Below, one piece after another: positions 13,452 through 53,345 of a stretch of 64,000 nucleotides of DNA; the stretch's first letter is position 1, and every line of letters begins with the position of its first letter. The position numbers were made by a program, and so were the translations under genes. The stretch lies in contig JAMZAV010001714.1 of NCBI GenBank assembly GCA_024449915.1, forward strand, positions 57,550 through 121,549, read 5' to 3'. The stretch is from Sweltsa coloradensis. Taxonomy: Eukaryota; Arthropoda; Insecta; Plecoptera; Chloroperlidae. The notes beneath the pieces were generated by a model. That model was given only the letters and a program-made list of their open reading frames with translations, was not told the DNA's origin and did not search any database.

Positions 13452-14632
13452 ACTAGGCCGATTTGCGAACGCGTTTTTTAGTCGCCTTGATGAATGAGCT
13501 TTTTTTGGAATATTTCTGTCCAATGATTAATCCTTGGTTAACCACCTGTTTCTGAGAAGCATAACTAACCACCTGGGGCGCGTCAGGACCCCATCATTAA
13601 AGCCCTTGTGTTTGCCAGGTTTCAGATTTTGGAACCAATATTCGTCAGGAATTAATGTTTGAACCTTTCTGATGACCACTTAGTGTTTCAAGAGTTAAAA
13701 TTCGCGAAAATTTTAGTGTTTTTTTCCACTTGAATTTTTTTTGAAAAAAACTGAAAAAAACGCAATGTTGTCAATTTTGTCAAATTTGAGTCCATTTTTG
13801 AACTTTAAAAAAAAAAAAAAAAATTACCAATGATGTTTAATGTATGATTGATTCGATTTCACAAAAAGTTTTCCCTTTTTTGTTTACTTTGTTGAAATTT
13901 TGACCAATCCCCCCCCCCCCCTTCACTTGAATTGACCTTTTTCATTCATATTTATATGTATGATTTTTTTTATATTATATATATGTATAATTTACTTAGA
14001 TAAGTATATATAAGTTCATATCTATCAATTTACATGAAAAATATGGTTATTTGGTGAGGGTGAAATGCATTGATAAACATTTTGCCAATGTAAAAACACT
14101 TGAAAATGTTTTACGTAAGTAGCCACCTGGGGTCCTTTGAATCCCCGTGAGGTTCGTGGAGAGTAATACGTAACACATGGAGACCGGGCTCCAACTGAAT
14201 TTTCATTGGTTAGAATGTAACTTGAAGGTACTGAGACTCACAGTAAGCCACGCCCATAGATGCGCTCATGGCTAAGCAATAAATGTTGACTGGGGGCCGA
14301 ATGGACCCCAGGTGGTTAACCAAGGGTTAAGTGTTTATGTGGAATCTCCTTACTTTTTCTATAGTAACTTGATAATACTTGTTCATTATACACCTGTAAA
14401 AGGCTTATATTAAAACCTTTATTGCTATGAATTTTGACCAACTTTTTCTACTTTTTCTTTCAAGAGGCACTACATCACCATAATCTTTATGTCAATGCAA
14501 AATATGAACGTTGTAGCTCCACCCGTTTGGTCAAAATCGGCCCAAATATCACGAAAATATCGTATTGAAAACCAGAGAGAAAATCGTAAAAGAATGATTT
14601 CTATAAGAAATATTTTTTCATATGTCTCTTAA
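13452..14632 (-). mobile_element. Helentron-like element, class 3, left part
   Basis: Starts ACTAGGCCG with hairpin and GATGAATGAGC. The interior runs to 13530, is interrupted by the TTAA MITE, resumes at 14327, and is cut again at 14632 by the Kolobok element. The remainder is at 28855-29228. Copy B shows it whole at 43594-44349. Confidence 0.75.
13531..14326. mobile_element. piggyBac-like MITE with TTAA target duplication
   Basis: A 796-bp element flanked on both sides by TTAA (13527-13530 and 14327-14330). Terminal inverted repeats are TCCTTGGTTAACCACCTG and its near-exact inverse at the right (outermost base differs). Copy B has a single TTAA at 43674-43677 at the same place, confirming a clean insertion. 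TTAA plus ends close to CCCTTGG fits piggyBac, though other TTAA superfamilies are possible. It holds A and C runs, a T-rich interior and no coding sequence. Confidence 0.85.
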
Positions 14633-14651
14633 AGGCATATTGTCAGATAGC
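14633..14651 (+). repeat. Left terminal inverted repeat of the Kolobok-like element
   Basis: AGGCATATTGTCAGATAGC; the first 13 bases match the right end with one difference. Preceded by TTAA. Confidence 0.85.
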
Positions 14652-14757
14652 TTTGTTGGTATCATATGTTATACCTCTTGTTATTTGAAGAATGTAGAAA
14701 AAAAATGAAAGAAATCGGTCCCAATTTACTCGACTAGCGAGCAATTTTGTTAGTTGG

Positions 14758-14765
14758 TGACGTCA
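14758..14765. promoter_or_regulatory. CRE-type palindrome upstream of the P2X7-domain gene
   Basis: TGACGTCA, followed 8 bases later by a second TGACG half (GTGACGTAG). The perfect octamer is the known CREB/ATF site. It lies about 155 bp before the start codon, so it may drive the gene. Function is inferred from position only. Confidence 0.45.
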
Positions 14766-14919
14766 CGCGGCGTGACGTAGATGGTGGTCTTCCTCGCCTG
14801 GTTCCGAGAGAAGTCTAGCGACCGCGCGCGAGCGAGCGCTTCAATGAGTTCAATGGGCGCGCAACCCCAGTCAGGTAGTAGAGTTGAATAGTCAGTGTGA
14901 TTAGTGTTCTTTCCGGAAG

Positions 14920-15465
14920 ATGTTAGGCCTGTCTCCCTACAGTTTTGAACCTACTTACACAGACGATGAGCAAAAGGAAGAACGAAAAAAACAGGAAGAA
15001 AAAGAAGCTTGGCTTAAAAAATTCAGTGACCGGAAAGGTAATGTCAAGTGGTGTACGTGTGACGAGTGTTTTTCAATGAATACTGATGTGGAGTCGTTAT
15101 GTTGTCACGAATCAAACACGATAACACGCGTGCGCGCAAATTTCGACTGCATAACCATTCACGACGGCTTCGAACACATAATAAACATACATTCATTGAA
15201 CACTGCAAGGCAACAGTTCTTACTCCACTCCTCGTGCGAAGACGACCGGAAAATGTGGCGGGAAACGTCAAACAAAATGTGGCGTCATATAGCTTACAGA
15301 CAGTTTGTGTCATGGATTAACTCGTGGACTGCATTAGGAAAAAACCATCGAATTGTCATTCCAGCCTGTGTCGTAAACGCTGTACGGGGAGAATATCCGG
15401 ATGCTGACGGGGTTTATGTGGGGTTTAAAGTCGCGGAAGGAGGCACTGTGGATTATTTTCAATAG
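14920..15465 (+). CDS. P2X7 ballast (cytoplasmic) domain protein, transposon-borne
   Basis: An intact 181-residue frame in a region where almost every other frame is broken. Residues 1-30 are acidic and lysine-rich (PYSFEP, then a likely helix). Residues 44-64 give WCTCDEC...ESLCCHE, with Cys45, 47, 50, 61 and 62 at positions typical of the zinc-binding ballast domain of the P2X7 receptor. Residues about 119-170 contain RHIAYRQFVSWI, then IVIPACVV...EYP...G.YVGFK, the other conserved part. In vertebrate P2X7 this domain follows the channel; here there are no transmembrane segments or P2X ectodomain, so it is not a receptor. Stand-alone ballast-domain proteins are known in invertebrates. The gene converges on the transposase gene inside the same pair of Kolobok ends. 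AATAAA follows at 15646. The start codon is the first ATG after the upstream stop. Its role for the transposon is unknown. Confidence 0.85.
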   Translation: MLGLSPYSFEPTYTDDEQKEERKKQEEKEAWLKKFSDRKGNVKWCTCDECFSMNTDVESLCCHESNTITRVRANFDCITIHDGFEHIINIHSLNTARQQFLLHSSCEDDRKMWRETSNKMWRHIAYRQFVSWINSWTALGKNHRIVIPACVVNAVRGEYPDADGVYVGFKVAEGGTVDYFQ

Positions 15466-15645
15466 AATCGACTCACCACGTACGTGCATTCCATTACAAT
15501 GTAATATTTACATAAAATGTGTTTCATAAGGGATTATTTCCCGTTTTTCGATAACTATTAATATCTTTTTGTTCTGATTTTAACGAACATAATATTGTTA
15601 TTGATAATACTAATTATGTGTATATTATACATTATTATCCGTCAC

Positions 15646-15651
15646 AATAAA
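15646..15651 (+). terminator. Poly(A) signal of the P2X7-domain gene
   Basis: AATAAA 181 bp after the stop codon and before the convergent transposase gene ends at 15712. Position fits; no cleavage site can be verified. Confidence 0.55.
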
Positions 15652-15711
15652 ATTTGATTTACTTTTTTTACTCGCTCTAAAAAACACATTTTGATTGCTT
15701 ACCTTGGCGAG

Positions 15712-16076
15712 TTACATATTTTCAAATCTTGCATATCTTGGCCTCATCTTCACTTCCTCCATCGATGGCTTGATTTTTGGAGCAATGTTTTGTGGCACTT
15801 CTGTTTCGTATTCGGAGATGTCATAGCTGCCAAACTGCATTATTTTATAGATTAGCTCGTCGCGCCAGACAGTTGATTTACGCTCATATTTTTTTGTAAG
15901 CACCCATTCCTTTTGAGCCTTCGAAAATCTCATGGTTTCACCAACACAACTTCTCCCTGTATTTGTATTGTGACTGATAACAGCAAGAGCCGACCGCGCC
16001 ATCATACCATCATACGGGAAATGCAGCCTTTTTGGTGTGTACACGAGTCTTTCATTGTGGTAGCTCTCAAGAGCGC
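15712..16076 (-). CDS. Kolobok transposase, C-terminal exon
   Basis: Opens in phase after a CCTAG acceptor (16078-16077) and ends at TAA 15714-15712. Contains YTPKRLHFPYDGMMARSALA and a later KEWVLTKKYE...WRDELIYK segment, both typical of the C-terminal part of Kolobok-type transposases. The frame is intact. Together with the core exon it looks under-mutated for an old element, so the insertion that broke the gene may be fairly recent. Confidence 0.8.
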
Positions 16077-16596
16077 CTAGGATAAGGGATAAATATACAA
16101 ATATTTTGATTAGAAAAATTTATAAACGTATCTTATGCAACATCCTACGTAACGCAAAAAGTAATGTGGCGTACTAAAAATCAGCTTCTAAATGCTAGGC
16201 TATGAAATATGGATTTTAATTGTTTATTTATTTTATTTATTTATTTAAAAAATTTCAGCATTTTTACTGCCAAACTCGGTGAATCATTTTACCAGTCTCC
16301 TGTCAGTATGCGCATATAAAATAAAATATAAACGTAATAAAAGTCTACTTTAAAGTTGTTATGAATAGATATAGTAATTTCTAAAACGTAAACAGTATGG
16401 CATAGCACACTTGTCTAGTATATACTACCATAACATATTTTATCTAGGTATTGTAATTATACTGAACACAAAATTGCCCTTAGTATGATTGTGCAGAGAA
16501 CGAATACCGTGTGCACGATTAAACCGGAAAAAAATTAATAATATTTTACATATGATAGTATTTCAGATTATAGCAAAGAATAACATATGGGCATAC
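16077..16596 (-). other. Intron of the transposase gene
   Basis: Donor CAG|GTATGC at 16596 and acceptor CCTAG at 16077. Joining the two sides keeps phase through the conserved CHTG...SYH segment. AT-rich, with TTTA repeats near 16220-16250. No internal gene. Confidence 0.8.
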
Positions 16597-17464
16597 CTGT
16601 ATGGCAGTAGTTTTTCGCGTGTCTTACATCTTTCAAAAACGTTTTATCCAAGATAACTTTGCTGAGAGTTTGGTGTGTTGAAGAGCCTGGTTTTATCCAC
16701 TTTTTGCTTGATGTGTTGTCATCTGTATGACTGCATTCGTGGAAAACGGTGTTGCCCTCCCACGCATGCGTATTTCCAACGTGCATCATAATGCTGGTGA
16801 ACTTCTCTAGCAACTCATCTTCGTTTCCGTTACACGTTTTAGAGCACCACCATAAATGATTGATAATACTTTGTTTCCAATCACTGACGAGTGGATTTTT
16901 ATTTTCTATTGCCTTTAATTTTTTAGCCAAACCTTTTGAAAGGTGCCAGACGTCATATTCATGCGTAATAGTGGGATACACAGTTCTTATTAATGCACCT
17001 ATACCACGATGCTTATCAGATAAGAAAAGTTTAATTGTTATTTTGCTTGTCAAAGAATCTAAAATCTTAGCACACGCAGCCTTTTCCAACTCTCCGTCAA
17101 CTTGACCACGCTGTAAAATCAAAAAGTCGATGATTTTACCGGAATGAATGTCCATTATACTATATGTAACATACTTGGCTGTGAAGCCTGGCGAATCAAA
17201 CTGTCCGTCCCCAGAGACCCAAATATCGTCATTTGATTTGTTTAGTGTAGCAAGTTCATTTTCGCGCATTATAGTCCAAGTGTCAAGTATTGCGGGACGA
17301 ACATACTTTTTGACGTGCCTGCAGTATGTTGATGCCGAAACAAATGCTAATTGCAGTGCATTTGCGAAATTCTTGAAGTACGAGAAACTTATACCGCAGG
17401 TATAAATAGCAGCCGTGACATGTACGTTTCCAACTGGAATCTTCCCCCTCATTGGTTGTGAATA
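16597..17464 (-). CDS. Kolobok transposase, catalytic core exon
   Basis: Open for about 290 codons. Seen in order: RGKIPVGN, TYCRHVKKYVRPAI, SGDGQFDSPG (first likely catalytic Asp), YSIMDIHSGKIIDF, LFLSDKHRGIGALI (second likely Asp), HEYDVWHLSKGLAKKL, INHLWWCSKTC and CSHTDD. This arrangement is characteristic of THAP-linked Kolobok transposases with an RNase H-like fold. The apparent Met start in YSQPM is an artefact: coding continues upstream until the inserted element at 17465. Confidence 0.85.
17454..17464. repeat. 11-bp target-site duplication, left copy
   Basis: GGTTGTGAATA, identical to 26844-26854. It lies within transposase coding sequence; see the right-hand copy for the reading-frame test. 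Confidence 0.85.
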
Positions 17465-17469
17465 AATCA

Positions 17470-17980
17470 CGGACGATTTGCCAGGCGGACAATTTGCCAG
17501 GGTCTATTTTGAGGGGCTAGGACAATTTGCCAGGCAAGTGTATGAGGTCACGGTGGGGCTAGGACAACTTGCCAGGCTAGAGTGTGACGTCACGGAGGGG
17601 CTAGGACAACTTGCCAGGCTGGTGTTAACATTGATAGGAGCACATGGTAACACATATCTGAACTGCAGGAAGAGTAATGCCAAGCACCGAACGAGACATG
17701 AGACATACACATACAAAGCAGCGTCGAAACCCAGGGACAAGGTGGTAGTTCTTGTCAGAATCCTGAAATTCAGGAGATGGCCCAAGTATCACCCCCTCCC
17801 CCCCCCCCCCCCCCACCCATTAGAAAATTGAAGAATTTATAAAATAAGGTTTTGGTTGTTATAGTTATTCGATTGTATTCCAAATAATTGGGAATTTGCA
17901 TAAGTTCCAGATATCGGTAAAAGTATCTGCAATATATAGATATTCTTCTATAAATTATATAAACGTTAATTTGAGTTTTT
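17470..17980 (+). repeat. Left long terminal inverted repeat
   Basis: Matches the inverse of the right arm apart from two differences. It carries one fewer CTAGGACAA repeat, and a C run (about 17790-17815) stands where the right arm has a 21-bp minisatellite. The similarity continues to AACGTTAATTTGAG near 17975, where a Helentron-like element interrupts it. Confidence 0.8.
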
Positions 17981-19243
17981 TTGGATGAGCGTAGCGAGCG
18001 AAGCGAAGATTCCATTCTACTACACTGGAGAAAAAAATCCAAAATGTTTTTTTTTCATTTTTTCTTTTTGTATTTTTGTCTGTTTGTCCATAGCCCAGGA
18101 GTGGAAGACTTTTACCCGGACAAAATTCCGAACAAGCTGAAAATTTGCACACAGGCTCAGATTAGCCTACTAAGCAATAGTTGAAAAGTCCCCGAAGCTC
18201 CGCCGCGTGCGTCTTGAGATATAGTGACAAAAGGGCTTAAGTGCCAAAAATTTGTTATTTTCAATGTCAACAATTTTTGTGCACTTATATATACAAATTA
18301 TTAAATATTTCTACGAAAGTAAAGTTTAAATCAGTCATAAGCTTCAACCCATGCGTGGCAAAAGGGCGTAAATGCTAAAAATATGATATTCTCAATTATT
18401 TCAATACATTTTGACATAAGTATGTGCAACTGCAAATAATTATGTATTCATACGACGGAAACGTGAAATTGTTCCCTTTTCTTCGACCTGTGTGTCTTAA
18501 AACATGGTGGCATAAGGGCGTAAGTGACAAATATATGTTATTTTCAGTTTCAACAAACTTATTTACATTCATACATTGCAAATTATTTAGTATTCGTACG
18601 AGACAAAAGTAAACATCTTCCCCGAGCTTCGTTGCTGGCGTCTTGATAAAATGGTGGCAAAAGGGCGTAACTGACATCATAATTATGTTTTTAATAAAAA
18701 AATGGCTTTTGACATTCAACTACGCTTATTGTAACATTGTGTTTGTTAACACGATTCCGGCTAAACCGATACTCCGATTGCGATGAAATTTTATGGAGGC
18801 CTTCGAAATCTCTAAACTTAGAACTGCCACGTTTTTGAGCGCAATCGGAAAATTTTTTCTCATAAAAATCGCAATTTTACGATTTTTTTCGATTTTTAAA
18901 AAATTTCACGTCTTATAACACCTACATGCTTTATCCGATTGTAATGATTTTTTCACAGAACCTTAATTTAATGAATTAATATATTCGTATGAAATTTGAG
19001 CGCAATCGAATAATTATTTCTTATGAAATTCGCAATTTTACATTTTTTCTTTTTTTAAATTACGATTAATTAAAAAAATTAAAAATTAAAGTTTATTTTT
19101 TAATTAATTTAAATTAATTTAAAAAATTTTAACTCAGTCATGATTTTTTCACAGAAAAACAGAAAATCCGCATAACACATGGCAACTCAATGCACCAATT
19201 ACGCTCATTCAACAACGCGGCGGGACTTAAGCGTTTTCCTAGT
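17981..19243 (+). mobile_element. Helentron-like element, class 1, with internal insertion
   Basis: Opens TTGGATGAGCGTAGCGAGCG and closes with hairpin and CCTAGT at 19243. About 650 bp of unrelated sequence (18090-18740) interrupts it after TGTTTGT. Removing that leaves an element of normal size (about 610 bp). Confidence 0.8.
18090..18740. repeat. Degenerate 130-150-bp tandem repeat inside a Helentron-like element
   Basis: About four units, each marked by AAAGGGC(G/T)TAA at 18230, 18362, 18508 and 18660 and containing a GTCTTGA or GTCTTAA block. Not found elsewhere in the window. No coding sequence. Its origin is unknown; it may be a degraded separate element. Confidence 0.6.
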
Positions 19244-19271
19244 AACACCTACATGCTAAATCCGATTTTAA

Positions 19272-19920
19272 AGGGGGATTTAACCGCTACACTCAAAAAA
19301 AAAAATTTCATTCAGGCTATAACTAGTAATGAATTTAGCAATTAACAGAAAAATTACTGGGGCCACCATGACCTCCCAAAAAATTGTCAAACATGACATT
19401 TTTCGAGCTAGGTCCCATCGGCAAAAATCTCCCATAAGAAATAACATAGGGACGATCTATATGCCCCGTGACCTTGGAGGATTTCGATCCAAAAAATATT
19501 GGTCATTATTGACGTAATCTACAACCTTCTCTGCAAATTCTCTATATTATTTTGTTTTGTAATTTGGGCAAGCAGTTCGGTCAAAATATGCTGATTACCA
19601 AGATGGGGTGTGATTTTGGATTGCATATTTTTGAGTGTTTGAGGGTATATTTGGGCACAGTTTCAAGACACGATGGTATAAAGGGGCATTTTTGATTGGT
19701 ACTATGCTCTAGTATCTATGTGAATCAAAAAAGAAGCAGGTTAAAACCGGTTTAAGAAATTTTCCAAAAACACCAATCTTCGCAAATTTCTGGATAAAAA
19801 AAAATTAAAAAATTCGTGTTAAATCACAGTGACAAGATATAATTTTTAAACGGTCATTTAAGTGTAGTATTGTGCTATAGATGACGTGGTAAAAAATAAT
19901 TTTATGGGGTTTTAGCCCCT
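19272..19920. mobile_element. TTAA MITE, copy 1
   Basis: 649 bp between TTAA at 19268-19271 and TTAA at 19921-19924, with ends AGGGGGATTTAACCGC and ...TTTTAGCCCCT. Nearly the same as 24302-24944. The short AGGGG-type inverted ends and TTAA fit a Kolobok- or piggyBac-type MITE. The 62-codon open frame in it is not a gene. Confidence 0.8.
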
Positions 19921-19924
19921 TTAA

Positions 19925-21205
19925 TGATTTTTTTACACAACCATAATTTTGTGAATTTAGGCATTCGGGTGAAATTTGAGCGCAATCGAAAAACTATTTC
20001 TCATGAAAATCGAAATTTTACGTTTTTTTCTTTTTTAAAACAATTCTTTGACTTATAACACCTACATGCTTCATCCTATTGTAATGAATTTTTTACAGAA
20101 CCTTAATTTTATGAATTAATACATTCGTGTGAAATTTGTGCGCAATCGAATAATTATTTCTTATTAAAATTTTAATATTACGATTTTTTCCTTTTTTAAA
20201 ATTACGGTTAATTAAAAAAAAATTTAAGTTAATTTTTATTGGATGAGCGAAGCGAAGACTTCAATTTGACTTTGCGTTTTTTTGTTTGATTTTTACTTAC
20301 GTTACCCCAAGAAAAATAGGCGGGTGTTTTGTTTTTGTTAGTTTTTTGTCTGTTTGTTCGCTCTCTACCGGGCAAACGGCATATGCGATCTTGATGAAAA
20401 TTGGAGGGGACCTTCGCAATCTCTGAAATTAGAGCTGTATTGTCTTTGGGTACAATCGAAGAAATAGTTCTCATAAATATCGTACTTTTACGATTTTTTT
20501 CGATTTTTAGTGCGATATTTTCGTGATATTTGGCAAACGGCTACTCCGATATTGATGAAACTTTATAGGAACGTTTAAAATCACTGAAATCATATATGTT
20601 ATGATTTAAGAGACATTTGAAAAAATATTTCTTTTAGAAATCGTACTTTTACGATTTTTTCTCCGGTTTTTAATACGATATTTTCGTGATATTTGGGCCG
20701 ATTTTGACCAAACGGGTGGGGCTACAACTTTTATATTTTATATTAACATAAAGATTATGGTGATGTAGTGCCTCTTGAAAGAAAAAGTTGAAAAAGTTGG
20801 TCAAAATTCATAGAAATAAAGGTTTTAATATAAGCCTTTTACAGGTGTATAATGAACAAGTTATATCAAGTAACTCTCGAGAAAGTAAGGAGATTGCACA
20901 TAAAAACGTAATCATTGGACACAAATATTCCAAAAAAAAGCTCATCCATCAACGCGACTGGAAAAAGCGTTCGCGAAGCGGCCTAGTTTAAATTTCTTCG
21001 ACGAATAACACTTACATGCTTTATCTGATTGTAATGATTTTTTCACAGAATCTTAACTTTATGAATTAGTATATTCGTGTGAAATTTGAACGTAATCGAA
21101 AAATTATTTCTCATGAAAATCTCTATTTTACGCTTTTTTTCGTTTTTAAAAAATTACGCTCATCCAACAACGCGCCTGAAAAAGCGTTTGCGAAGCTTCC
21201 TTGAA
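19925..21205 (+). mobile_element. Helentron-like element, class 2, interrupted
   Basis: Interior modules 19925-20238 and 20987-21205 join across a nested class 3 element. The end at 21164-21205 has the class 2 hairpin and GAAGCTTCC but ends CCTTG instead of CCTAG. The start is missing. Confidence 0.6.
20239..20986 (+). mobile_element. Helentron-like element, class 3, complete
   Basis: TTGGATGAGCGAAGCGAAGA at the left; hairpin AACGC...GCGTT and GCGGCCTAGT at the right. 748 bp, close to the 751 bp of 35854-36604. It includes the conserved GGTGGGGCTACAAC block at 20716. Confidence 0.85.
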
Positions 21206-21468
21206 GAATTTAATGTTTTTTTATGTTGTTTTTTGGTAAATTTGATAGCCTAAAGGTTCAGTTTATTTAATTAACATGAATTCACTGGGCCTTTACAACC
21301 TGTTAATCTTGGCTTCTTTTTAAAATTGACTAAAATTGTTATAAATAACACTCTATACAGCCCTACATTAGGCCTAATATCAGTACCGGTAAGCCATTTT
21401 TTCACGCAAAAATAGCATTCAGAGCTCAAGAAAAAAATTATATATTTATTTATTTATTTATTTATTTA
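21206..21468. other. Unassigned 260-bp stretch ending in a TTTA repeat
   Basis: No gene and no match to other repeats in the window. (TTTA)n lies at 21446-21468, directly at the start of the next element. Confidence 0.4.
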
Positions 21469-22010
21469 TTGAACGAGTGAGCGTAGCGAACGTAGTGATT
21501 TCCATTCGACTTAAACGGCCCTTATTGTTTTTCTGCGTGCGTGCGTGCGTGTGTGTGTGTGTACGTTAAAAATCAGCCGAATCGCTGAACAGATTGCGCT
21601 GAAATTTTAAACGGACATCCGGTACGAGTTTATTGAGAACTGCTAACAAAATCAGCAAGATTCATTGCGATTTAAACATACAAGAAATAATAAACTGAAA
21701 AATAGACTTCCAATGTTATGAAATTATTTTAACGACAATGTTTTAGATTTTGAAAAGATATTTTTTGTTTTTTATTTACCTGGCAGTGAAATGCCGTGTC
21801 CATTCAAGGTCTGTCGAATGTTTTAAGTCAAAGTACCCCCAAATTCCGCTCGTAGATTGAGTAAACCTTGCAATGTTTTCACGTATTTCGTACTGGCTAT
21901 GTTTACCATAGTAGGCCCTATTGCCACAGATGATGGACTTCACTGCGTTATATGCATTTCAAAACATGTTTAATAATTTTTTAAATACAATCTCGAAATT
22001 ACAAAATCTT

Positions 22011-22083
22011 TCCCGACCAGGGGATTGAACCCACGTCTCCCATATTTCGGCTATAAGGGCGCTTTAGCCAACTAGACCAGGGA
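22011..22083 (-). repeat. tRNA-like segment, copy 1
   Basis: Read on the minus strand, 73 nt from TCCCTGG to CGGGA, with an A-box-like TGGTCTAGTTGG and a B-box-like GGTTCAATCCC at tRNA spacing. Only four acceptor-stem pairs hold and the anticodon arm is weak, so it is a tRNA-derived SINE head or relic and not a working tRNA gene. Confidence 0.5.
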
Positions 22084-22583
22084 AACGCCAAAGTCGTAGT
22101 TAGACGAGTGAGAGAGTCATGTGGTGAGTACCCGGGAACATATGCATTTAAGTTTGATAATTATATTCGTATAAATAATAGTTTTTTAAAGTTTAGTTGG
22201 CATACGGGGACGGGCGGTCAACTGTAAGGTCATAATGCGCCTCTCTAGCCTATGATAGGCTAGGTAGGCCTAAGGTAGGGGGAAGAAAAGTAATGTAATC
22301 GGGTACAATGTTTTAGATTTTGAAAATATATTTTTTGTTTATTATTCGCCTGGCCGTGAAATGCCGTGCCCATGCAAGGTCTGTCGAATGTTGCACGTCA
22401 AGGTACCCACAAAATTCGCTCGTAGATTGAGTAAACCTTGCAATATTTTCACGTATTTCGTACTGGCTATGTTTACCATAGTAGGCCCTATTGCCACAGA
22501 TGATGGACAACACTGCGTTATATTATGCATTTCAAATCATGTTCAATTATTTTTGAAATACAATCTAGAAATTACAAAATCTT

Positions 22584-22657
22584 TCCCGACCAGGGAATTG
22601 AACTCACTTCTTTCACATTTCGGCTACAAGGGCGCCTTAGCCAACTAGACTATAGGA
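22584..22657 (-). repeat. tRNA-like segment, copy 2
   Basis: Second copy about 573 bp from the first, with further changes (AGTTCAATTCC in the B-box position). It lies in the second half of the direct duplication. Confidence 0.45.
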
Positions 22658-22935
22658 AAACGCCAAAGTCGTAGTGAGACGAGTGGAGCGAGTCATGTGG
22701 TGAGTACCCGGGAACATTTGCATTTAAGTTTGATAATTATATTCGTATAAATAATAGTTTTTAAAGTTTAGTTGGTATACGGGGACGGGCGCGTCAACTG
22801 TAAGGTCATAATGCGCCTCTCTAGCCTATGATAGGCTAGGTAGGCCCAAGGTAGTGGGAAGAAAAGTAATGTAACCGGGTACTTAACACATGGCTCACTC
22901 ACTCGTTTAACAACGACTTTGGCGTTTTCCCTAGT

Positions 22936-23447
22936 TTATTTATTTATTGACGATTTAAATACAGCTTTACAGCCATTTTACATTAAATCTTATAACATAA
23001 AATCAACATTTTTTTTACATTTTTCTTTATCATAACCTTATAAACTATAGACCAAATCAAGATAACATAATATAATACATTTTATACAGCCTATACATTT
23101 ACATTTTACAAACCATTTACATACAATACACATTTCATACATTCAATTTATTTATACAATATTTATACGTCTCACGGTCTCAGTTTCTGATGATCGCCCA
23201 AACCACCTCTAAGGCTGCGTCTGGTTTATGTAGTGGCGAAGTGAAGTAAGAAATGACCGGAGGTTATTTGCAAATATGTCAAACGAAGAAGACTGAGGCA
23301 ATGAGTTAAAAGTAGTGGGAAGGCGGAAGAAAAGAGATCTTTTAGTGACGGAGAGTCGGGGGGTGGGGGTGTGGAACAGACTGCTGAGCCTTGTAGTTCG
23401 GGAAGGTATTCTAAGCGGAAAGAGGGACACAAGTATATCTGACCTAA
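22936..23447 (-). mobile_element. LINE 3-prime end fragment
   Basis: On the minus strand the frame at 23209-23440 encodes a typical LINE C-terminal tail (SRTTRLSSLFHTPTPR, KRSLFFRLPTTFNSLP). It is followed by an AT-rich untranslated region ending in a (TAAA)n tail at 22936-22950. Reverse transcriptase itself is absent, so this is a 5-prime truncated copy; the clade is uncertain (CR1/L2-like tail). Confidence 0.7.
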
Positions 23448-24227
23448 TTGGATGAGCGTAGCGAGCGAAGCGAAGATTCCATTTCACTACACTGGAGAAA
23501 AAAATCCGGAATGTTTTTTTTTCTTTTCTTTTTTTTTCTTTTCGTATTTTTGGCTGTTTGTTAACACGATTCCGGCTAAACCGATAATCCAATTACAATG
23601 AAATTTTATGGAGGCCTTCGAAATCTCTGAACTTAGAACTGCCACGTTTTTGAGCGCAATCGAAAAATTATTTCTCATGAAAATCGCAATTTTTCGATTT
23701 TTTTCGATTTTTTTAAAAAATATCTTTGACTAATAACACCTACATGCTTTATTCGATTTTAATGATTTTTCACAGAACCATAATTTTATGAATTAAGATA
23801 TTCTTGTGAAATTTGAGCGCAATCGAAAAATTATTTCTTATGAAAATCGAAATTTTACAGTTTTTTTATATTTCAAACAATTCTTTGACTTATAATAACA
23901 CCTACATGCTTTATCCGATTGTAATGATTTTTTCACAGAACCTTAATTTTATGAATTAATATATTCGTGTGAAATTTGAGCGCAATCAAATAATTATTTC
24001 TTATGGAAATCGCAATTTTACGATTTTTTTCTTTTTTAAAATTAATATTTATTTTAAAAATTAAAAATTAAGTTTATTTTTTATTTAAATTAAATTAAAT
24101 TTAAAAAAATCTTCAACTTAGCCATGATTTTTTCACAGAACAACAGAAAATCCGCATAACACATGGCAGCTCAATGCACCAATTACGCTCATCCAACAAC
24201 GCGGCGGGACTTAAGCGTTTTCCTAGT
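23448..24227 (+). mobile_element. Helentron-like element, class 1, complete
   Basis: TTGGATGAGCGTAGCGAGCG at the left and CCTAGT at 24227; 780 bp. It sits between two LINE fragments. Open frames reading through its T-rich linker are by-products. Confidence 0.85.
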
Positions 24228-25480
24228 ATTGCCATTCACAATGCGATGTAATAAAGCCATGTCCGACCTTGATCTACGAGAACTTAACGTATCAATATTA
24301 AAGGGGTATTTAACCGCTAAACTCAAAAAATATATTTCATTCAGGCTAACTAGTAATGAATTTAGCAATTAACAGAAAAATTATTGGGGCCACCATGACC
24401 TCCCAAAAAATTGTCAAACATGACATTTTTCGAGCTAGGTCCCATCGGCAAAAATCTCCCATAAGAAATAACATGGGGACGATCTTTATGCCCCGTGACC
24501 TTGGAGGATTTTGATCTAAAAAAATATTGGCCATTATTGACGTACTCGACAGCCTTTTCTGTAAATTCTCTATATTTTGTTTTGTAATTTGGGCAAGTAG
24601 TTTGGTCAAAATATGCTGATTACCAAGATGGGGTGTGATTTTGGAATGCATATTTTTGCGTGTTTGAGGGTATATTTGGGCACAGTTTCAAGACACGATT
24701 TTAAAAAGGGGTATTTTAGATTGGTACTATGCTCTAGTATCTATGTGGACAAAAAAAGAAGCAGGTTAAAGCCGATTTAGGAAATTTTCCAAAACACCAA
24801 TTTTCGCCAATTTCTGGATCAAAAAAATTCAACAATTCGTGTTAAATCACAGTTACAAGATATTATTTTTTAAACGGCCATTAAAGTGTAGTATTGTGCT
24901 ATAGATCACGTGGTAAAAAATAATTTTAGGGGTTTTTAGCCCCTTTAAGTGATTTCATTATTTCTTGCTTCTTGGTGCAACTTCTGAACGCAGGCACTCG
25001 ATTCTTAACAATCGCAAGAAAAAATGATACCACTCGGTCAAGCTGTTTTAGATTAGTGTCAGCAGCCATTGCCCATATTGGGGAACAATATTCAACAATT
25101 GGCAAAATGCAACCTGTATAATATGCTCTTAGTGCTGCCGGGTCATTTATGTCCGTGAATCTGTAGAGAATACCCAACATAGACATTGCTTTGGAAGTAG
25201 TTTTGTCAACATGGTTTTTAAACAATAATTTTGAGTAAAAAACAATGGTCCCAACACACTGCCTTGGATCACACCGGAAATAACAGGAAGCCAAGATGAC
25301 GAGGCTCCGTTTATTACAACACGCTGCGTACGATTGCTTAGAAAGTCTGTTAGTAGTGACAAGAATTCACCGTGAATACCAAAACGCTTAGATATCTTGT
25401 ACAACAGGTGGCGATGACTTACGGAGTCAAATGCATTAGCAAAGTCAACGTAGGCTACATCTAGTTCCGTTTAATTTAAT
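24228..25480 (-). pseudogene. LINE reverse transcriptase fragment split by a MITE
   Basis: On the minus strand from about 25475: VDFANAFDSVSH, then LSNRTQRVVING, then GVIQGSVLGPLFF (the conserved PQG-type block with Pro replaced by Ile-Gln context). A jump follows that loses the FADD region, then the C-terminal tail YYTGCILPIVEYCSPIW. The tail continues on the far side of the TTAA MITE (RSRSDMALLHRIVNG near 24230-24290). A non-LTR retrotransposon of the Jockey/CR1/I type, truncated at both ends and inactive. Confidence 0.75.
24302..24944. mobile_element. TTAA MITE, copy 2, inside the LINE
   Basis: 643 bp between TTAA at 24298-24301 and 24945-24948, with ends AGGGGTATTTAACC and ...TTTTTAGCCCCT. 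The LINE tail reads in frame across the site if the MITE is discounted, which confirms the boundaries. Confidence 0.85.
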
Positions 25481-25668
25481 GCTTTTAGCATTACATCGGC
25501 ATAAAATAAATTTATGAAGGCAATAAATAAAAAGTAAACTTAAAAAACAATTAAAACACTAATAATGCAAAATTGCTGGTTTTTCACACATTTTTAGTGA
25601 AGCAACCTCTTAAACAATTACGCTCATCCAACAACGCGCCAGAAAAAGCGTTTGCGAAGCTTCCTAGT
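25481..25668 (+). repeat. Helentron-like 3-prime end, class 2
   Basis: GCTCATCCAACAACGCGCC, hairpin, GAAGCTTCCTAGT at 25668. No opening arm is present nearby; the sequence before 25610 is unassigned. Confidence 0.65.
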
Positions 25669-26837
25669 AAGTAAAAACACAATGTTGATAAAGACTTTGG
25701 TAGAAGGTGGGAATTTCGTTGTTTATCTAGGCGACCGTGTTCGTATGAGGGCCAGTGACGTAGGCAACCGTTTCAAAATAAATGTGCGGGCAATTTTAAA
25801 GGTCAAACTTTGACCCTCAATAGATATTGAACGAATAACTTTAAAAACTTAAAATCAACGTTTATATAATTTATAGAAGAATATCTATTTATTGCAGATA
25901 CTTTTACCGATATCTGGAACTTATGCAATTTCCCAATTATTTGGAATACAATCGACTATAACTAACTAAAACATTATTATATAAATTCTTCAATTTTCTA
26001 TGGGTTAGGGGTGAGGGGGTGTGCTTAGATCTAGGGAGCAGATGCACAGTTACAGGGGTAGGATGCACAGTTACAGGGGTAGGATGCACAGTTACAGGGG
26101 TAGGATGCTGAGGACCAGGGAGAGGATGCTTAGATCTAGGGAGCAGATGCACAGTTACAGGGGTAGGATGCACAGTTACAGGGGTAAAAATGCTCAGTTA
26201 CAGGGGTAGGATGCTGAGGACCAGGGAGAAGATGCTTAGATCTAGGGAGCAGATGCACAGTTTCAGGGGTAGGATGCACAGTTACAGGAGTAGGATGCTG
26301 AGAACAAGGAAGAGGATGCTTAGATCTAGGGAGCAGATGCACAGTTACAAGGGTAGGATGCACAGTTACAGGGGTAGGATGCACAGGACCAGGGAGAGGA
26401 TGCTTAGATCTAGGGAGCAGATGCACAGTTACAGGGGTAGGATGCACAGTTCGCCATCTGCTGAATTTCAGGATTCTGACAAGAACTACAACCTTGTCCC
26501 TGGGTCTCGACGCTGCTTTGTATGTGTATGTCTCATGTCTCGTTCGGTGCTTGGCATTACTCTTCCTGCAGTTCAGATATGTGTTACCATGTGCTCCTAT
26601 CAATGTCAACACCAGCCTGGCAAGTTGTCCTAGCCTGTTAGTGACGTCACACTGTAGCCTGTCAAATTGTCCTAGCCCTTCATTTATGTCTGGCAAGTTG
26701 TCCTAGCCCCACCGTGACGTCACACTCTAGCCTGGCAAGTTGTCCTAGCCCCACCGTGACCTCATACACTTGCCTGGCAAATTGTCCTAGCCCCTCAAAA
26801 TAGACCCTGGCAAATTGTCCGCCTGGCAAATCGTCCG
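25669..26837 (-). repeat. Right long terminal inverted repeat with minisatellite
   Basis: Inverse of 17470-17980 for about 25860-26837, with an extra 21-bp minisatellite and one extra CTAGGACAA subterminal unit. The innermost 25669-25857 has no partner, because the left arm is cut by a Helentron-like element. Confidence 0.75.
26017..26453. repeat. 21-bp minisatellite
   Basis: About 20 units of 21 bp in three types: GGATGCACAGTTACAGGGG, GGATGCTGAGGACCAGGG and GGATGCTTAGATCTAGGG, in a mixed higher-order pattern. Because 21 is a multiple of three, both strands have long open frames of seven-residue repeats; these are not considered genes. Confidence 0.85.
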
Positions 26838-26843
26838 GTTACC

Positions 26844-26854
26844 GGTTGTGAATA
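26844..26854. repeat. 11-bp target-site duplication, right copy
   Basis: GGTTGTGAATA. The sequence beyond it continues the transposase frame (minus strand HNGHSETW), and the sequence beyond the left copy continues with RGKIP, so the duplicated 11 bp exactly bridges the gene. Confidence 0.85.
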
Positions 26855-27765
26855 CCACGTTTCGGAATGTCCATTATGACACATTGTGCGAACAATCAAC
26901 ATACATCCGGTTATATTTTTTTTAAACTTACAACAGGAGATCCACATGCTAAACAAAAGTTAAACAGCATTTCCAGGTATGCCCATAATACAAGAAAAAC
27001 TGAAGAATTTTGAGTCTCCTCGTTGTCTGTGATGTGATCTTCAGAGTTCTCAGAATCACAATCAGTGTCAGATTCATGTTCATCCGAGCTCTCCGTCCCA
27101 AAATATTCGTCGCGGTCATTGTTTTCATTTGCATCGGATTCGCTCGCAGAGCTTACACCCAAATTTACGCTCTCCGCCAGCTAATTGGCTCTAATCAGTG
27201 TTTCGAAACCAAGTTCACACTGTATTTCAATGGATTTGGTTTTCGCGTCACCCACAGAAGTTTCTTGATGTTTAGAGGCGTCACAGGGTGTAGTAACAGA
27301 GACACTATAGCGAGAAGTAGAAGGCGTGGACTTTGTTGACACAATATGACTTGCAATTTTCTGCTTTTTGTTTGGTGTAATTTTTTCAAGCGTTACGTTT
27401 TCAATTAAATCACGTTTGTTTCTAGCCATAGTATATGTAGACATTCTTTCCTTCTTTACAGGCACATCTAATTTACCTCGCAATTTGACAGATGGAACCG
27501 CACATTTCTTTAATTCACGTTTTGATTTCACATTTCCCATTAACTTTAATTTTATACTGTTAGCAATTTCATAATCGTCTTCAACGAAATGCTCGGAACA
27601 TACTCGGGTATGTTTGCTGGGAACAAATTTATCCCGTTTAATTTTTGCTAGCCAGGATTTGTATCTTACAGGAGATTTGTCCCTGTTCGGAAAACGGTGA
27701 AAAGATATCTTGTCCGTACTTGCAAATCTTTTACTGCATCCGTATACACAGCATGCATATACCAT
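26855..27765 (-). CDS. Kolobok transposase, THAP domain and acidic linker
   Basis: Residues 1-60 form a THAP zinc finger: Cys5-x4-Cys10, Pro26, Trp38, Cys56-x2-His59, then Phe60. AVPSVKL follows near residue 95. THAP domains bind DNA and in Kolobok probably recognise the element ends. A stop (27183-27181) interrupts a linker rich in Asp, Glu and Ser. The frame then continues to LFNFCLACGSPVV, a CxxC segment typical of this family, and is shifted by one base in an A run near 26922 before TMCHNGHSETW. The start ATG at 27765 gives the expected THAP N-terminus. Confidence 0.85.
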
Positions 27766-27784
27766 GTTTATTACGTCTTGTACA

Positions 27785-28490
27785 ACAAGAAACTGACACT
27801 ATAGCCTATTTACAACAATATTTATTTACACGTGATTTACACCGTTGAACACACTCTTGCTTCGGAAAAGTATCAAATGCCGCGCACTTACAGAGTTTAG
27901 ATTGCAGTCACTCGCATTATTCATATACTACAATGATGAATTTTACCACTAATATTATAATTATTCAACAAATTATGTATTATGAGTCACTGACACTATA
28001 GCCTATTTTTAACAATATTTACACACACGTGATTTACACAGTCGAACACACTCCGGCTTAGGAAAAGTATCAAACGCCGCGCACAGTTTAGATTGCAGTC
28101 ACTCGCATTATCCATATACCATAATGATGAATTTTACCACTAATATTATAATTATTCAACAAATTATGTATTATGAGTCACTGACACTATAGCCTATTTT
28201 TAACAATATTTACACACACGTGATTTACACAGTCGAACACACTCCGGCTTAGGAAAAGTATCAAACGCCGCGCACAGTTTAGATTGCAGTCACTCGCATT
28301 ATCCATATACCATAATGATGAATTTTACCACTAATATTATAATTATTCAACAAATTATGTATTATGAGTCACTGACACTATAGCCTATTTTTAACAATAT
28401 TTACACACACGTGATTTACACAGTCGAACACACTCCGGCTTAGGAAAAGTAGGTATCAAACGCCGCGCCCTTACATAGTTTGTAGCTTGC
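27785..28490. repeat. 190-bp tandem repeat upstream of the transposase
   Basis: About 3.7 units. GAGTCACTGACACTATAGCC recurs at 27985, 28175 and 28366 (periods 190 and 191), with a diverged first unit at about 27788. The middle units are nearly identical. Each has a CACGTGATTTACAC block with an E-box (CACGTG). It lies between transposase start and element end, where promoter and transposase-binding sites are expected. Confidence 0.8.
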
Positions 28491-28854
28491 AGTAAACTCG
28501 CATTATCCATATACTTCAATGCCTAATTTAACTGCTAATATTATATTCTACAAATTACACAGAAAAATAAAAGCAGTAAGCAAAACTAGTGACAAAGATG
28601 CAAAAACACTCCTTGCAGTCACACTGTCAACCCTTAACTGCAGGTACCGCGTGCTAGAGCAGTGACTAGTGAGCCTCGCCTCGCCGCTCGGTCCGTTGAC
28701 CACCACGAACGTCACATGCCCCCGGGCTCGCGTCAATACAACCCATTGTAGACGGAGCGGACATCACCCATAGATGCCAAATATGACGGAATTCTTATTT
28801 TTTGTGTGTCTTCTTGGGGATAATATCTACTTCATTTTATGTGACAATATACCT
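28491..28854 (-). other. Right end of the Kolobok-like element
   Basis: Contains a last diverged repeat piece, a GC-richer stretch (28640-28770, CCTCGCCTCGCCGCTCGGTC) that may be the transposase promoter region, and the terminal inverted repeat at 28836-28854 (TATGTGACAATATACCT). No other gene. Confidence 0.6.
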
Positions 28855-29228
28855 TTATATCATAAATTATATGATTTCAGTGATTTTAAACGTTCCTATA
28901 AAGTTTCATCAATATCGGAGTAGCCGTTTGCCAAATATCACGAAAATATCGCACTAAAAATCGGGGAAAAAATCGTAAAAGTACGATATTTATGAGAAAT
29001 ATTTCTTCGAATGTACCCAAAAAAAATACAGCTCTAAGTTCAGAAATTTCGAAGGTCCCCTCCAATTTTTATCAAGATCGCTAATGCCGTTTGCCCAGTA
29101 GAGTGCGAACAAACAGACAAAAAAACTAACAAAAACAAAACACCCGAGCTATTTTCTTGGGGTAACGTAAGTAAAAAACAAACAAAAAAACACAAAGTCA
29201 AATTGAAGTCTTCGCTTCGCTCATCCAA
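28855..29228 (-). mobile_element. Helentron-like element, class 3, right part after Kolobok
   Basis: Continues the element cut at 14632 and closes GCTTCGCTCATCCAA at 29228. TTAT at 28855-28858 is the altered second TTAA copy. Confidence 0.75.
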
Positions 29229-43440: not shown

Positions 43441-44777
43441 ACTAGGCTGCTTCGCTAACGCTTTTTTTATTCGCGTTGATGGATGAGCTTTTTTGTAAGT
43501 TTTTGGTTTGCATAGGACTACTTTTCTTTTGACAGTGCTTTTTGAATGCAATGTAGGTGATTGTAGTCAAGATTCTATTGTTTCTTTGTTATTACTAGGC
43601 CGCTTCGCGAACGCGTTTTTTAGTCGCGGCGCGTTGATGAATGAGCTTTTTTTGGAATATTTCAGTCCAATGATTAAGTTTTTATGTGGAATCTCCTTAC
43701 TTTTTCTATAGTTACTTAATAATACTTGTTCATTATAAACCTGTAAAGGGCTTATATTAAAACCTTTATTTCTATGAATTTTGACCAACTTTTTCTACTT
43801 TGTCTTTCAAGAGGCACTACATCACCATAATCTTTATGTCAATGTAAAATATGAACGTTGTAGCTCCACCTGTTTGGTCAAAATCGGCCCAAATATCACG
43901 AAAATATCGTATTGAAAACCAGAGAGAAAATCGTAAAAGAATGATTTCTATAAGAAATATTTTTTCAAATGTCTCTTAAATCATAACATATAGTATTTCA
44001 GTGATTTTAAACGTTCCTATAAAGTTTCATCAATATCGGAGTAGCCGTTTGCCAAATATCACGAAAATATCGCACTTAAAATCCGAAAAAAAATCGTAAA
44101 AGTATGATATTTATGAGAAATATTTCTTCGATTGTACCCAAAAACAATACAGCTCTAAGTTCAGAAATTTCGAAGGTCCCCTCCAATTTTTATCAAGATC
44201 GCTAATGCCGTTTGCCCGGTAGAGTGCGAACAAACAGACAAAAAAACTAACAAAAACAAAACACCCGAGCTATTTTCTTGGGGTAACGTAAGTAAAAAAC
44301 AAACAAAAAAACACAAAGTCAAATTGAAGTCTTCGCTTCGCTCATCCAATAAACCTCAAAAAACTCTTAGTAAAACCTTTTTTCTATGGATTCTGGCTAA
44401 CGTTTTGAACTTTCTCTTTCAAAGTGCAATACATCACCATTACCTTAATGTCCATGTTAAATATGAACGTTGTAGCCCCACCCGTTTGGTCAGAATCGGC
44501 CCAATGTCACGAAAATATCGCACTAAAAATAAAAATAAATCGTAAAAGTACGATATTTATGTGAAATAATTCTTTGATTGTTCCCAAAAACGTGGCAGGT
44601 CTAAGTTCAAAGATTTCTAAGGTCCCCTCCAATTTTCATCAATATCGCATATGCCGTTTTCCCGGTAGAGTGCGAACAAACAGACAGAAAAACAAACAAT
44701 TTAAAAAAACACACACACATTGGAGCTAAATTTTTTGAGGGGTCAATGAAATTGAAGTCTTCGCTTCGCTCATCCAA
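43441..44777 (-). mobile_element. Two nested Helentron-like elements, class 3
   Basis: Hairpin ends at 43441 (ACTAGGCTGCTTCGC) and 43594 (ACTAGGCCGCTTCGCGAAC); closing arms at 44349 and 44777. Best read as an inner element 43594-44349 within an outer one. It carries both TTAA empty sites that are filled in copy A. Confidence 0.7.
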
Positions 44778-49354: not shown

Positions 49355-51795
49355 TTAGCGTAAGTTTAAGTTAGGTTTGTTGCGAGATTTAATTATCCAT
49401 TGATGAGCGAGCTCCATGGACCTTAACTCTCTGTCGGTTGCGCCCGGGAGCGATCGAACTACTCGTGTAGTGTAGCAATCGTCGAACCGGAGGTCATGGG
49501 TTCCTGCGTGAGTGGGTACAGGTTTCGGCTTTTTGTGGGTGTCTGTGTCACACCTATGGCCAGCCATTCTATTGCTAAGAAGGTTACTCGTTAGGCCAAT
49601 GTATTCAGCTGGACACAGGTTACACTTGAGCTGGTAGATGACGTCAGTGGAGGCACAGTTGTGATGGCCTCTAATGGGGTAGGTCTTGTTTGTGGCTCCA
49701 GCTGTGATTGACGTCTGGGTGGATAGGGCAAGTTTTGCATCGAGGTCTTTTACATGGAAAGGACCCGTCAGGTTCCCTATCGTCGCCACTTGTGCCAATC
49801 ATAGGATTAGGGTCTCGTTGAACAAGAAGGTCCTTTAGATTGGGGGGGCGTCTGAAAGCTACGCGGGGCACTGTTGGCATTAGATCCTGTGTCTTAGTTG
49901 AGCCAGACAAGATGTGGTGTCCACTCTTAAGGATGCCATTGAGAACGTGAAGTCCTGGGTGCCATTGCGTAACGAGGGGTAGAGTGTTGTCTGGCACCAG
50001 ACTGCTTCCTTTCGACGTGGGGTTCTCAACTCGTCGTCTGACGTCTTTTTCAGGGTATCCTCTGTCGATGAAGGCCCGCGTAATCCGGTCGCAGTACTTG
50101 GTTCGATCCTCCTCGGTGCTGCATATGCGTTTTCCCCGCGTCGCGAGGGAGTTGGGTAAAGCGCGTTTGGTGTAGAGCGGGTGACAGCTCTCGTAGTGTA
50201 GGTACTGAAGGTGATTTGTGGGCTTAAAATGTACGTCCGTGCGGAATGAACCATTTTCTACGTACACGTCGACGTCGAGAAATGTGACGTGATGGCGAGA
50301 GATTTGCCACGTGAACTTGACGGCATAGGTGTTGTTGAGGCCGTTTAGAAAAGTGTTAAAAGACTTCTCTCCATGGGTCCAAACTACGTAGATGTCATCG
50401 ATGAACCTGAGCCAACAGATGGGTTTGTGTTCTTGAGTTGACAGATAGTCTTCCTCTAGTTTGCCCATGTACAGGTTGGCATAAGATGGCGCCATTCTTG
50501 TACCCATAGCTGTTCCTTTTACTTGAAGTTAGTGGCGGTCCTGGAAACGGAAGTTGTTGTTGTTAAGTACCATTTCGGCCAAAGAGATGAGGAAGTCTGT
50601 CTCTGGTACGGAATCCGCTGGACGAGTGTTAAGAAAGTGCTCCATCGCAGCCAAGCCATGTTCTGTGGGAATATTTGTGTAGAGTGATGTTACATCTATA
50701 GTCGCAATAATAACGTCTTTGGGTAGGGTGTTGTTAAACTCTTGAATACGCTCAAGAAAGTGGTTGGTGTCTTTGATATGAGATGGTAACTTCTTGACGT
50801 GATCTTGAAGGTGGAAGTCAACAAATGCTGATATTCGTTCTGTCGGAGAGTTGAAACTTGATACGATTGGTCGTCCGGGATTATTTGGTTTGTGAATTTT
50901 CGGTAAAGTGTAGAATACAGGGGACTCCTCGGGGGTGAGAAGTTTAATCGAGTTGTTACTCAAGTTTTGAGAGGGACCGTGCTTCTCCAAAAATTTTACA
51001 ATCCGTTTCTTGTGATTCACTGTAGGATCTCTTGTCAAACGTTTGTAGGTGGTTCCATCTGACAGTTGGCGGTTCGCCTCCTCAATGTATGCGTCTTTGT
51101 CCATTACTACAGTCGTGGAGCCTTTATCTGCTGGTACAATTACGATGTTATTATTATTTCGCAGACTAGAGATGGCTTTCCGTTCTTGAATAGATAGATA
51201 AGACGTTTTTGACAACTTCTCTGTGAAGTCTGGAGATGCTACTTGTGTCATTATGTGGTTTATATAAATTTCTAATGGGTGGTCAGAGGGAAGTTCGGGG
51301 TCCCAATCAGAAGCAGGTTTAAATTTATTGATTGCTGGGTGCGTATTATTGTTGTATTCATGCTTGTTTTCGTTGAAGTACAGTTTTAAACGGAGATTCC
51401 GCGCAAATGATAAAACATCACTTACCAATCTAAAGTGATCAAATGAGGGAGTGGGGGCGAATGTTAGGCCTTTGTTAAGCACTTCTAACTCTGAGTCCGA
51501 CAGCTCGTGGCTAGACAGGTTCAAGATTGCGTTGCTGTATTTTTTTGTCATTTGGTACAGCCCTGGGTGGGAGGGGTTGTAAGACAGGAAGACGCGGGAC
51601 ACGAGCAGGTGGTTTCTCGAGTGTGCACAAGTCAGCGGGTGTGGGATACTGGCCAATTAGGGGTGCGTGTGGCGCCTGGTCGAGGAATGTCGTCGGCAGC
51701 GCGAAGTTGTTCCTCATGTAGAAGCAAGCCAGCTTCGATAATTTGAATAAATACCTCGACGAATTATCTGACAGTTTTGAGACCGCACTCCTCAA
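49355..51795 (-). pseudogene. Penelope-like polyprotein: reverse transcriptase plus GIY-YIG endonuclease
   Basis: 51656-50529 holds the N-terminal part and early RT motifs: KGSTTVVMDKDAY, YTLPKIHKP, GRPIVSS and TIDVTSLYTNIP (motif A Asp). A single TAA (about 50531) then interrupts before GTAMGTRMAPSYANLYM (motif B) and RFIDDIYVVW (motif C with the Asp pair), which run in the same frame to about 49690. A one-base shift there moves the C-terminal GIY-YIG part into another frame: TYPIRGHHNC...DVIYQLKCNLCPAEYIGLTS. The N-terminus before 51600 is also shifted. Few defects, so fairly young. RT and GIY-YIG in this order are diagnostic of Penelope-like elements. Confidence 0.85.
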
Positions 51796-52035
51796 TATAT
51801 CCTCAATTTGAGTGTCTTAATGAGGGGATGACATTCGCACAACTTTCACGAATGATACGAGCTTGCAATGATGTTCATCAGCTGATTTAGTATACAATTT
51901 TACTACTTCGTTCGTGAGTTGAACACATTGTTTAAGGTGCAACAACGCAATCTGTGGCCTCATGTCGGGCGGGAGTCCTGTGATCGCTAGTTTTGGTGTA
52001 AGGCCCTTAGAGGGGATGTAGGGGGGATGAAGACG

Positions 52036-53345
52036 TTATTATTGCGACTATAGATGTAACATCACTCTATACAAATATTCCCACAGAACATGGCTTGGCT
52101 GCGATGGAGCACTTTCTTAACACTCGTCCAGCGGATTCAGTACCAGAGACAGACTTCCTCATCTCTTTGGCCGAAATGGTACTTAACAACAACAACTTCC
52201 GTTTCCAGTACCGCCACTACATTCAAGTAAAAGGAACAGCTATGGGTACAAGAATGGCACCATCTTATGCCAACCTGTACATGGGCAAACTAGAGGAAGA
52301 CTATCTGTCAACTCAAGAACACAGACCCATCTGTTGGCTCAGGTTCATCGATGACATCTACGTAGTTTGGACCCATGGAGAGAAGTCTTTTAACACTTTT
52401 CTAAACGGCCTCAACAACACCTATGCCGTCAAGTTCACGTGGCTAATCTCTCGCCATCACGTCACATTTCTCGACGTCGACGTGTACGTAGAAAATGGTT
52501 CATTCCGCACGGACGTACATTTTAAGCCCACAAATCACCTTCAGTACCTACACTACGAGAGCTGTCACCCGCTCTACACCAAACGCGCTTTACCCAACTC
52601 CCTCGCGACGCGGGGAAAACGCATATGCAGCACCGAGGAGGATCGAACCAAGTACTGCGACCGGATTACGCAGGCCTTCATCGACAGAGGATACCCTGAA
52701 AAAGACGTCAGAAGACGAGTTGAGAACCCCACGTCGAAAGGAAGCAGTCTGGTGCCAGACAACACTCTACCCCTCGTTACGCAATGGCACCCAGGACTTC
52801 ACGTTCTCAATGGCATCCTTAAGAGTGGACACCACATCTTGTCTGGCTCAACTAAGACACAGGATCTAATGCCAACAGTGCCCCGCGTAGCTTTCAGACG
52901 CCCCCCCAATCTAAAGGACCTTCTTGTTCAACGAGACCCTATGATTGGCACAAGTGGCGACGATAGGGAAAACCTGAGGGGTTTCCTTTCCATGTAAAAG
53001 ACCTCAATGCAAAATTGCCCTATGCACCCAGCCACTACGTCATTCCAGCGGGAGCCACAAACAAGACCTACCCCATTAGAGGCCATCACAACTGTGCCTC
53101 CACTGACGCCCAATCTACCAGCTCAAGTGTAACCTGATCCAGCTGAATACATTGGCCTAACTAGTAACCTTCTTAGCAATAGAATGGCTGGTCATAGGTG
53201 AGACAGCCACCCACAGAAGGCGAAACCTGTGCCCACTCACGCAGGACCCCAGGGACTCCGGTTCGACGATTGCTACACTACACGAGTAGTTCGATCGCTC
53301 CCGGCGCAACCGACAGAGAGTTAGGTCCTGGAGCTCGCTCATCAA
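52036..53345 (+). pseudogene. Penelope-like polyprotein, inverted 5-prime-truncated copy 2
   Basis: Starts abruptly at the codons for motif A (TIDVTSLYTNIP) and runs intact through motif B, RFIDDIYVVW and the thumb region to about 52950. It has TAC where copy 1 has the stop. The GIY-YIG part (53040-53330) is shifted and shortened by small deletions. Apart from these it is almost identical to copy 1. Confidence 0.85.

Follow-up and report, generated by a model that had tools for sequence, protein, structure and literature searches.

A decayed Kolobok transposon, very probably of Kol0 type, with an intact P2X7 ballast-domain gene in Sweltsa coloradensis

Ballast-domain proteins and Kolobok elements

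KolX, which Kol0-type Kolobok elements encode as their second protein, has the fold of the P2X7 ballast domain, as described by Kojima and Bao 2022 (PMC9587614; from this paper, as from PMC6004289 and PMC7016195 below, part of the text is drawn on). KolX resembles human P2X7 over residues 476-595 and folds as the cytoplasmic ballast does, with seven cysteines conserved; in both P2X7 and KolX these cysteines surround two zinc ions (PMC9587614). Here we analysed a stretch of 64,000 nucleotides from Sweltsa coloradensis (Plecoptera; assembly GCA_024449915.1, contig JAMZAV010001714.1, positions 57,550 to 121,549), hereafter the window, in which one DNA transposon, read from the window sequence, spans 14633-28854 and is about 14.2 kb long as it stands. 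We conclude that the locus is a DNA transposon of the Kolobok superfamily, now decayed and very probably a member of Kol0 (probability about 0.93), and that the ballast-domain gene within it is its KolX. Taken by itself, the identity of the element is close to certain. An earlier note on this DNA proposed that a DNA transposon carries stand-alone ballast proteins; this matches the published account (PMC9587614) and is therefore not new, and the locus adds no new principle to the known association with Kolobok.

Kojima and Bao concluded that vertebrate P2X7 arose when a P2X4-like gene fused with KolX, and they regard Nanor as a likely domesticated KolX; according to them, Rump et al. 2020 (PMC7016195), who had surveyed stand-alone ballast proteins earlier, made no link to Kolobok (PMC9587614). 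Kolobok termini are given there as 5′-RR ... YY-3′, unlike those of piggyBac, and the word THAP is absent from the main text. For Xenopus Kolobok, the transposase motifs, AG termini, TTAA sites, a usual THAP domain and an H2CH putative zinc finger have been described (PMC6004289). Among open-licence full texts, KolX appears by name only in Kojima and Bao (PMC9587614), one review (PMC9319628) likewise combines Kolobok, transposons and P2X, and in the open-licence literature on transposons and domestication since 2022, P2X7 and ballast appear together only in that paper.

Ends, target site and transposase

The boundaries of the element are as follows.

14629-14632, left target-site duplication TTAA, from direct reading and five uninterrupted copies of the flanking repeat
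14633-14649, + strand, left terminal inverted repeat AGGCATATTGTCAGATA, from its match to the inverted right end
28838-28854, - strand, right terminal inverted repeat, AGGTATATTGTCACATA in minus-strand reading
28855-28858, right target-site copy, TTAT and not TTAA

The terminal inverted repeats AGGCATATTGTCAGATA and AGGTATATTGTCACATA are identical at 15 of 17 bases, and both ends start with 5′-AG (AG..CT), in line with the RR..YY termini of the Kolobok superfamily. The target site is the TTAA of Kolobok, from which the right copy departs by one base. The earlier note described TTAA-flanked Kolobok-like ends; the matching ends and the left TTAA hold, but the right flank is TTAT, which the note did not mention. 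piggyBac was ruled out as the source of these ends, which are AG..CT, while the Pfam families above cut-off are THAP and Mutator-like.

The flanks of the transposon are themselves a repeat. When both flanks were joined (614 bases) and matched against the whole window, five long element-free matches spanned the junction.

43667-44279, empty-site match, 96% identity
36536-35928, empty-site match, 93% identity
20918-20313, empty-site match within the nested insertion, 92% identity
55701-56221, empty-site match, 82% identity
63093-63613, empty-site match, 82% identity
43976-43979, unoccupied TTAA site within the first of these repeat copies

Two of these five sites have TTAA at the junction and the other three have TAAA; the empty site at 43976-43979, already named in the earlier note, is one of the two TTAA junctions. 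Five further alignments over the joined position were shorter and weaker (71-74%), and we left them out of the count because they are sub-repeats of the flanking repeat with no TTAA at the junction. Since the five uninterrupted sites place the element ends outside the ballast gene, the gene lies inside the element, as had been claimed. The window is AT-rich (36% GC) and densely packed with nested repeats, so that an ordinary gene and a fragment of a transposase might by chance lie between two unrelated repeats; against this, 15 of the 17 end bases agree and, at exactly these boundaries, the flanks run on unbroken in five other places, and we give such a coincidence practically no weight.

On the minus strand, facing the ballast gene, two pieces carry the domains of a Kolobok transposase. 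A THAP domain (PF05485) was found at 27798-27181 (E 3.8e-16, 60.1 bits, cut-off 23.9), as is usual for Kolobok, and a Mutator-like DDE domain (PF20700) at 17503-16568 (E 7.2e-9). We read these as parts of what is probably a single transposase gene, separated by a nested insertion at about 17465-26843.

27184-27765, - strand, THAP-domain exon, ATG at 27765
27181-27183, - strand, in-frame stop, the same frame being open on either side
26923-27180, - strand, acidic linker and LACGSP part, an open frame similar in layout, by eye, to P0065
26844-26922, - strand, continuation ...CMLIVRTMCHNGHSETWYSQP, in another frame than the upstream part, resembling SCMSGHTVTWESQP of P0065
16597-17464, - strand, DDE part (GDGQFDSPG, SDKHRG, DVWH, HVGNTHAW...CSH)
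16077-16596, - strand, probable GT-AG intron, predicted from sequence alone
15712-16076, - strand, last exon with ALESYH (presumed catalytic E) and stop, from alignment with P0062

The DDE piece is 47% identical to protein P0062 over 98% of its length, and two of the five transposase matches are stick-insect (Dryococelus) proteins with 49-50% identity. The blocks GDGQFDSPG, SDKHRG, DVWH and ALESYH align with P0062 and others, and splicing out 16077-16596 yields YCHTG-ALESYH, to be compared with the uninterrupted YCHTGLLECYH of P0062. The seven rows of the alignment are partial, and no column is invariant across all seven; the assignment of the catalytic acidic residues is presumptive. The segment HVGNTHAWEGNTVFHECSH has residues in the order H-H-C-H, is aligned with P0062 and is a candidate for the H2CH motif.

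Three lesions interrupt the transposase, namely the in-frame stop, the nested insertion and a shift of frame within or close to the A-run 26916-26923. Because the gene is broken by the stop, the frame break and a 9.4 kb nest, this copy should be unable to move itself. The THAP-transposase gene of the earlier note is thus present by its THAP and DDE domains, but it is not whole, and the nested insertion had gone unmentioned. Without the nest the transposon would measure about 4.8 kb.

The KolX gene and its possible role

14920-15465, + strand, KolX (P2X7 ballast-domain) gene, 181 amino acids, intact from ATG to TAG (181 codons = 14920-15462)

The gene starts 287 bases in from the left end of the transposon, runs convergent with the transposase, and is followed on its 3′ side by AATAAA at 15646. 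It matches the Pfam family P2RX7_C (PF20478) with E 3.9e-21 (76.3 bits, cut-off 23.5), which bears out the intact 181-residue, convergent ballast gene that had been proposed, and P2RX7_C is the sole Pfam family above cut-off in the 186-codon open frame. Against PDB sequences, KolX gave four P2X7 matches (best E 8.1e-6) and three others at E 0.34-0.81. In structure comparison by Foldseek and VIA-align, the confident matches were P2X7 chains; the 22 Foldseek matches included nine to other proteins, each with probability <=0.08. The predicted fold therefore appears to be that of the P2X7 ballast, with both programs leaving room for other folds. The seven cysteines fit the zinc-site pattern published for P2X7 and KolX, and a second protein with a ballast domain and seven cysteines is what marks Kol0.

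We considered whether a host gene of Nanor or P2X7 type was recently captured as a passenger by this one transposon copy. Stand-alone ballast genes are known from many animals (PMC7016195), and the window holds a single copy: each of the five protein pieces matched its own place only (tblastn, E <=0.01). However, the gene sits close inside the left end and convergent to the transposase, and in the sequence examined it shows none of the insertion boundaries of its own whose presence, by the earlier note, would count against carriage by the element. Furthermore, the Pfam scan of the open frame found the ballast domain with no P2X channel domain attached, and such a second gene is a published feature of Kol0 (PMC9587614). 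Recent capture is thus very unlikely, and KolX as a regular component of the element is preferred.

A host could instead have domesticated this KolX and be holding it by selection as the remainder decays. The KolX frame is whole, whereas two small lesions and the nested insertion have damaged the transposase, and Nanor is a published likely case of KolX domestication (PMC9587614). However, two small lesions per ~2.1 kb of transposase exons predict ~0.5 lesions in the 543 bases of KolX, so that even without selection the frame would be intact with a chance of ~0.6 (a hand calculation assuming equal age and rate). As an intact frame is expected in about six cases out of ten without selection, domestication is not shown; the gene also still lies within recognisable transposon ends, and we consider this explanation improbable, though slightly less so than capture.

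Relatives of KolX in the protein collection numbered two by single-sequence search and 61 by a profile of three sequences, and those from named organisms belong to insects, a sea anemone, an acorn worm, a sea cucumber, molluscs and fish. We aligned the window protein with 35 of the 61 (36 rows); the 26 omitted are mostly short or partial, with three longer and two of normal length. All 36 scanned proteins match P2RX7_C and no other Pfam family (E up to 0.001). Six of the seven cysteines are present in every one of them and the seventh in 35, and the zinc site therefore appears to matter. Window KolX retains all seven zinc-site cysteines, each of which pairs with a rat P2X7 cysteine in the alignment. 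Searches for relatives in the viral contig collection gave 27 pattern matches and in the bacterial/archaeal contig collection 31, none of them confirmed; the silence of the latter says little because that collection holds bacteria and archaea.

The guanosine diphosphate (GDP) contacts of rat P2X7 are R546, H547, R574, R578 and K583 (PMC7016195), and we placed these positions on KolX by counting along the P2X7 alignment. The counterpart of R546 is R in 36/36 proteins and that of R578 in 33/36, H547 is H in 17/36, and R574 and K583 are retained in 0/36 and 1/36, respectively. Window KolX has the counterparts of R546, H547 and R578 and lacks those of R574 and K583. Nucleotide binding by KolX is thus possible, with the GDP site retained only in part. 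H547 has been stated to be absent from invertebrates (PMC7016195). At the H547 place, residue 123 of window KolX is H, as it is in P0037 from a sea cucumber and P0047 from an oyster.

These features suggest how the element may have worked. An intact transposase would bind the element ends via its THAP domain and drive cut-and-paste movement. KolX would be expressed from a promoter of its own at the left end and assist transposition as a small zinc-stabilised protein, which may have a guanine-nucleotide pocket resembling that of P2X7, and KolX of this dead copy could still be produced and serve other copies. Whether KolX has a positive accessory role in transposition seems to us an even bet; it could help or restrain the process. 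A more ambitious proposal is that KolX is a working zinc and guanine-nucleotide cofactor of Kolobok transposition and the P2X7 ballast a repurposed regulator, with the intact KolX of this dead element perhaps still acting in trans or already serving the host; we regard this as speculative and rather doubtful.

Neighbouring repeats and comparison with known systems

17465-26843, nested element (9.4 kb) interrupting the transposase gene; its inverted ends are long (about 300 bases), and it contains further repeats
27792-28451, a 191-bp unit repeated in tandem (3.4 copies, 95% match), after the transposase start (27765) and before the right end

An 11-bp direct repeat, GGTTGTGAATA, flanks the nest on both sides (17454-17464 and 26844-26854). 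The inverted arms of the nest match at 99% over 148 nt and at 95% over 226 nt. Because the arms start 5-6 bases inside the direct repeats, the ends of the nest are uncertain by a few bases. Its long inverted ends contain 42-bp sub-repeats. By site length and ends it resembles a Mutator-type element, and the five open frames scanned within it yielded no transposase. It contains a reverse-transcriptase fragment at 24926-25470 (-), of which 25147-25470 matches RVT_1 below cut-off (E 2.8e-6, 27.6 bits against 29.6). Elsewhere in the window, 49671-51656 (-) and 52011-52997 (+) are long open stretches on opposite strands that encode, by eye, nearly the same reverse-transcriptase-like protein; by resemblance these are candidate Penelope-like elements. 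A 242-codon open frame at 57393-58121 (+) resembles, from reading alone, the end of a reverse transcriptase.

Compared with Nanor and other stand-alone ballast (ZCD) proteins (PMC7016195), window KolX is likewise small and consists of the domain and a short N-terminal part; the account of these proteins by Rump et al. 2020 differs in that transposons go unmentioned in the part of its text used here (0 occurrences of 'transpos'). With the C-terminal ballast domain of P2X7, KolX shares the Pfam family, the predicted fold, the seven-cysteine pattern and the counterparts of R546, H547 and R578. It differs from the receptor in having neither the channel part nor counterparts of R574 and K583, and the two are about 26% identical by structural alignment. 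The zinc and GDP sites of P2X7 have been described as of unknown function (PMC9859053), and the function of KolX, if worked out, could explain them.

The Xenopus Kolobok elements (XKol, T2-MITE; PMC6004289) have the same AG termini, TTAA sites and THAP plus DDE transposase as the window element, whereas their end sequences are different and P2X or KolX has 0 occurrences in the main text of that paper. The closest match is to the published Kol0 elements. The window copy differs from them in being dead, in its 9.4 kb nest and in one altered target copy, and it shares with them the TTAA target, 5′-AG..CT-3′ ends following the RR..YY rule, a DDE transposase, and a separate small ballast-domain protein with seven cysteines. 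With its boundaries known exactly and its target site seen uninterrupted elsewhere, the locus is one more case in agreement with the link between the P2X7 ballast and Kolobok that has been claimed in print.
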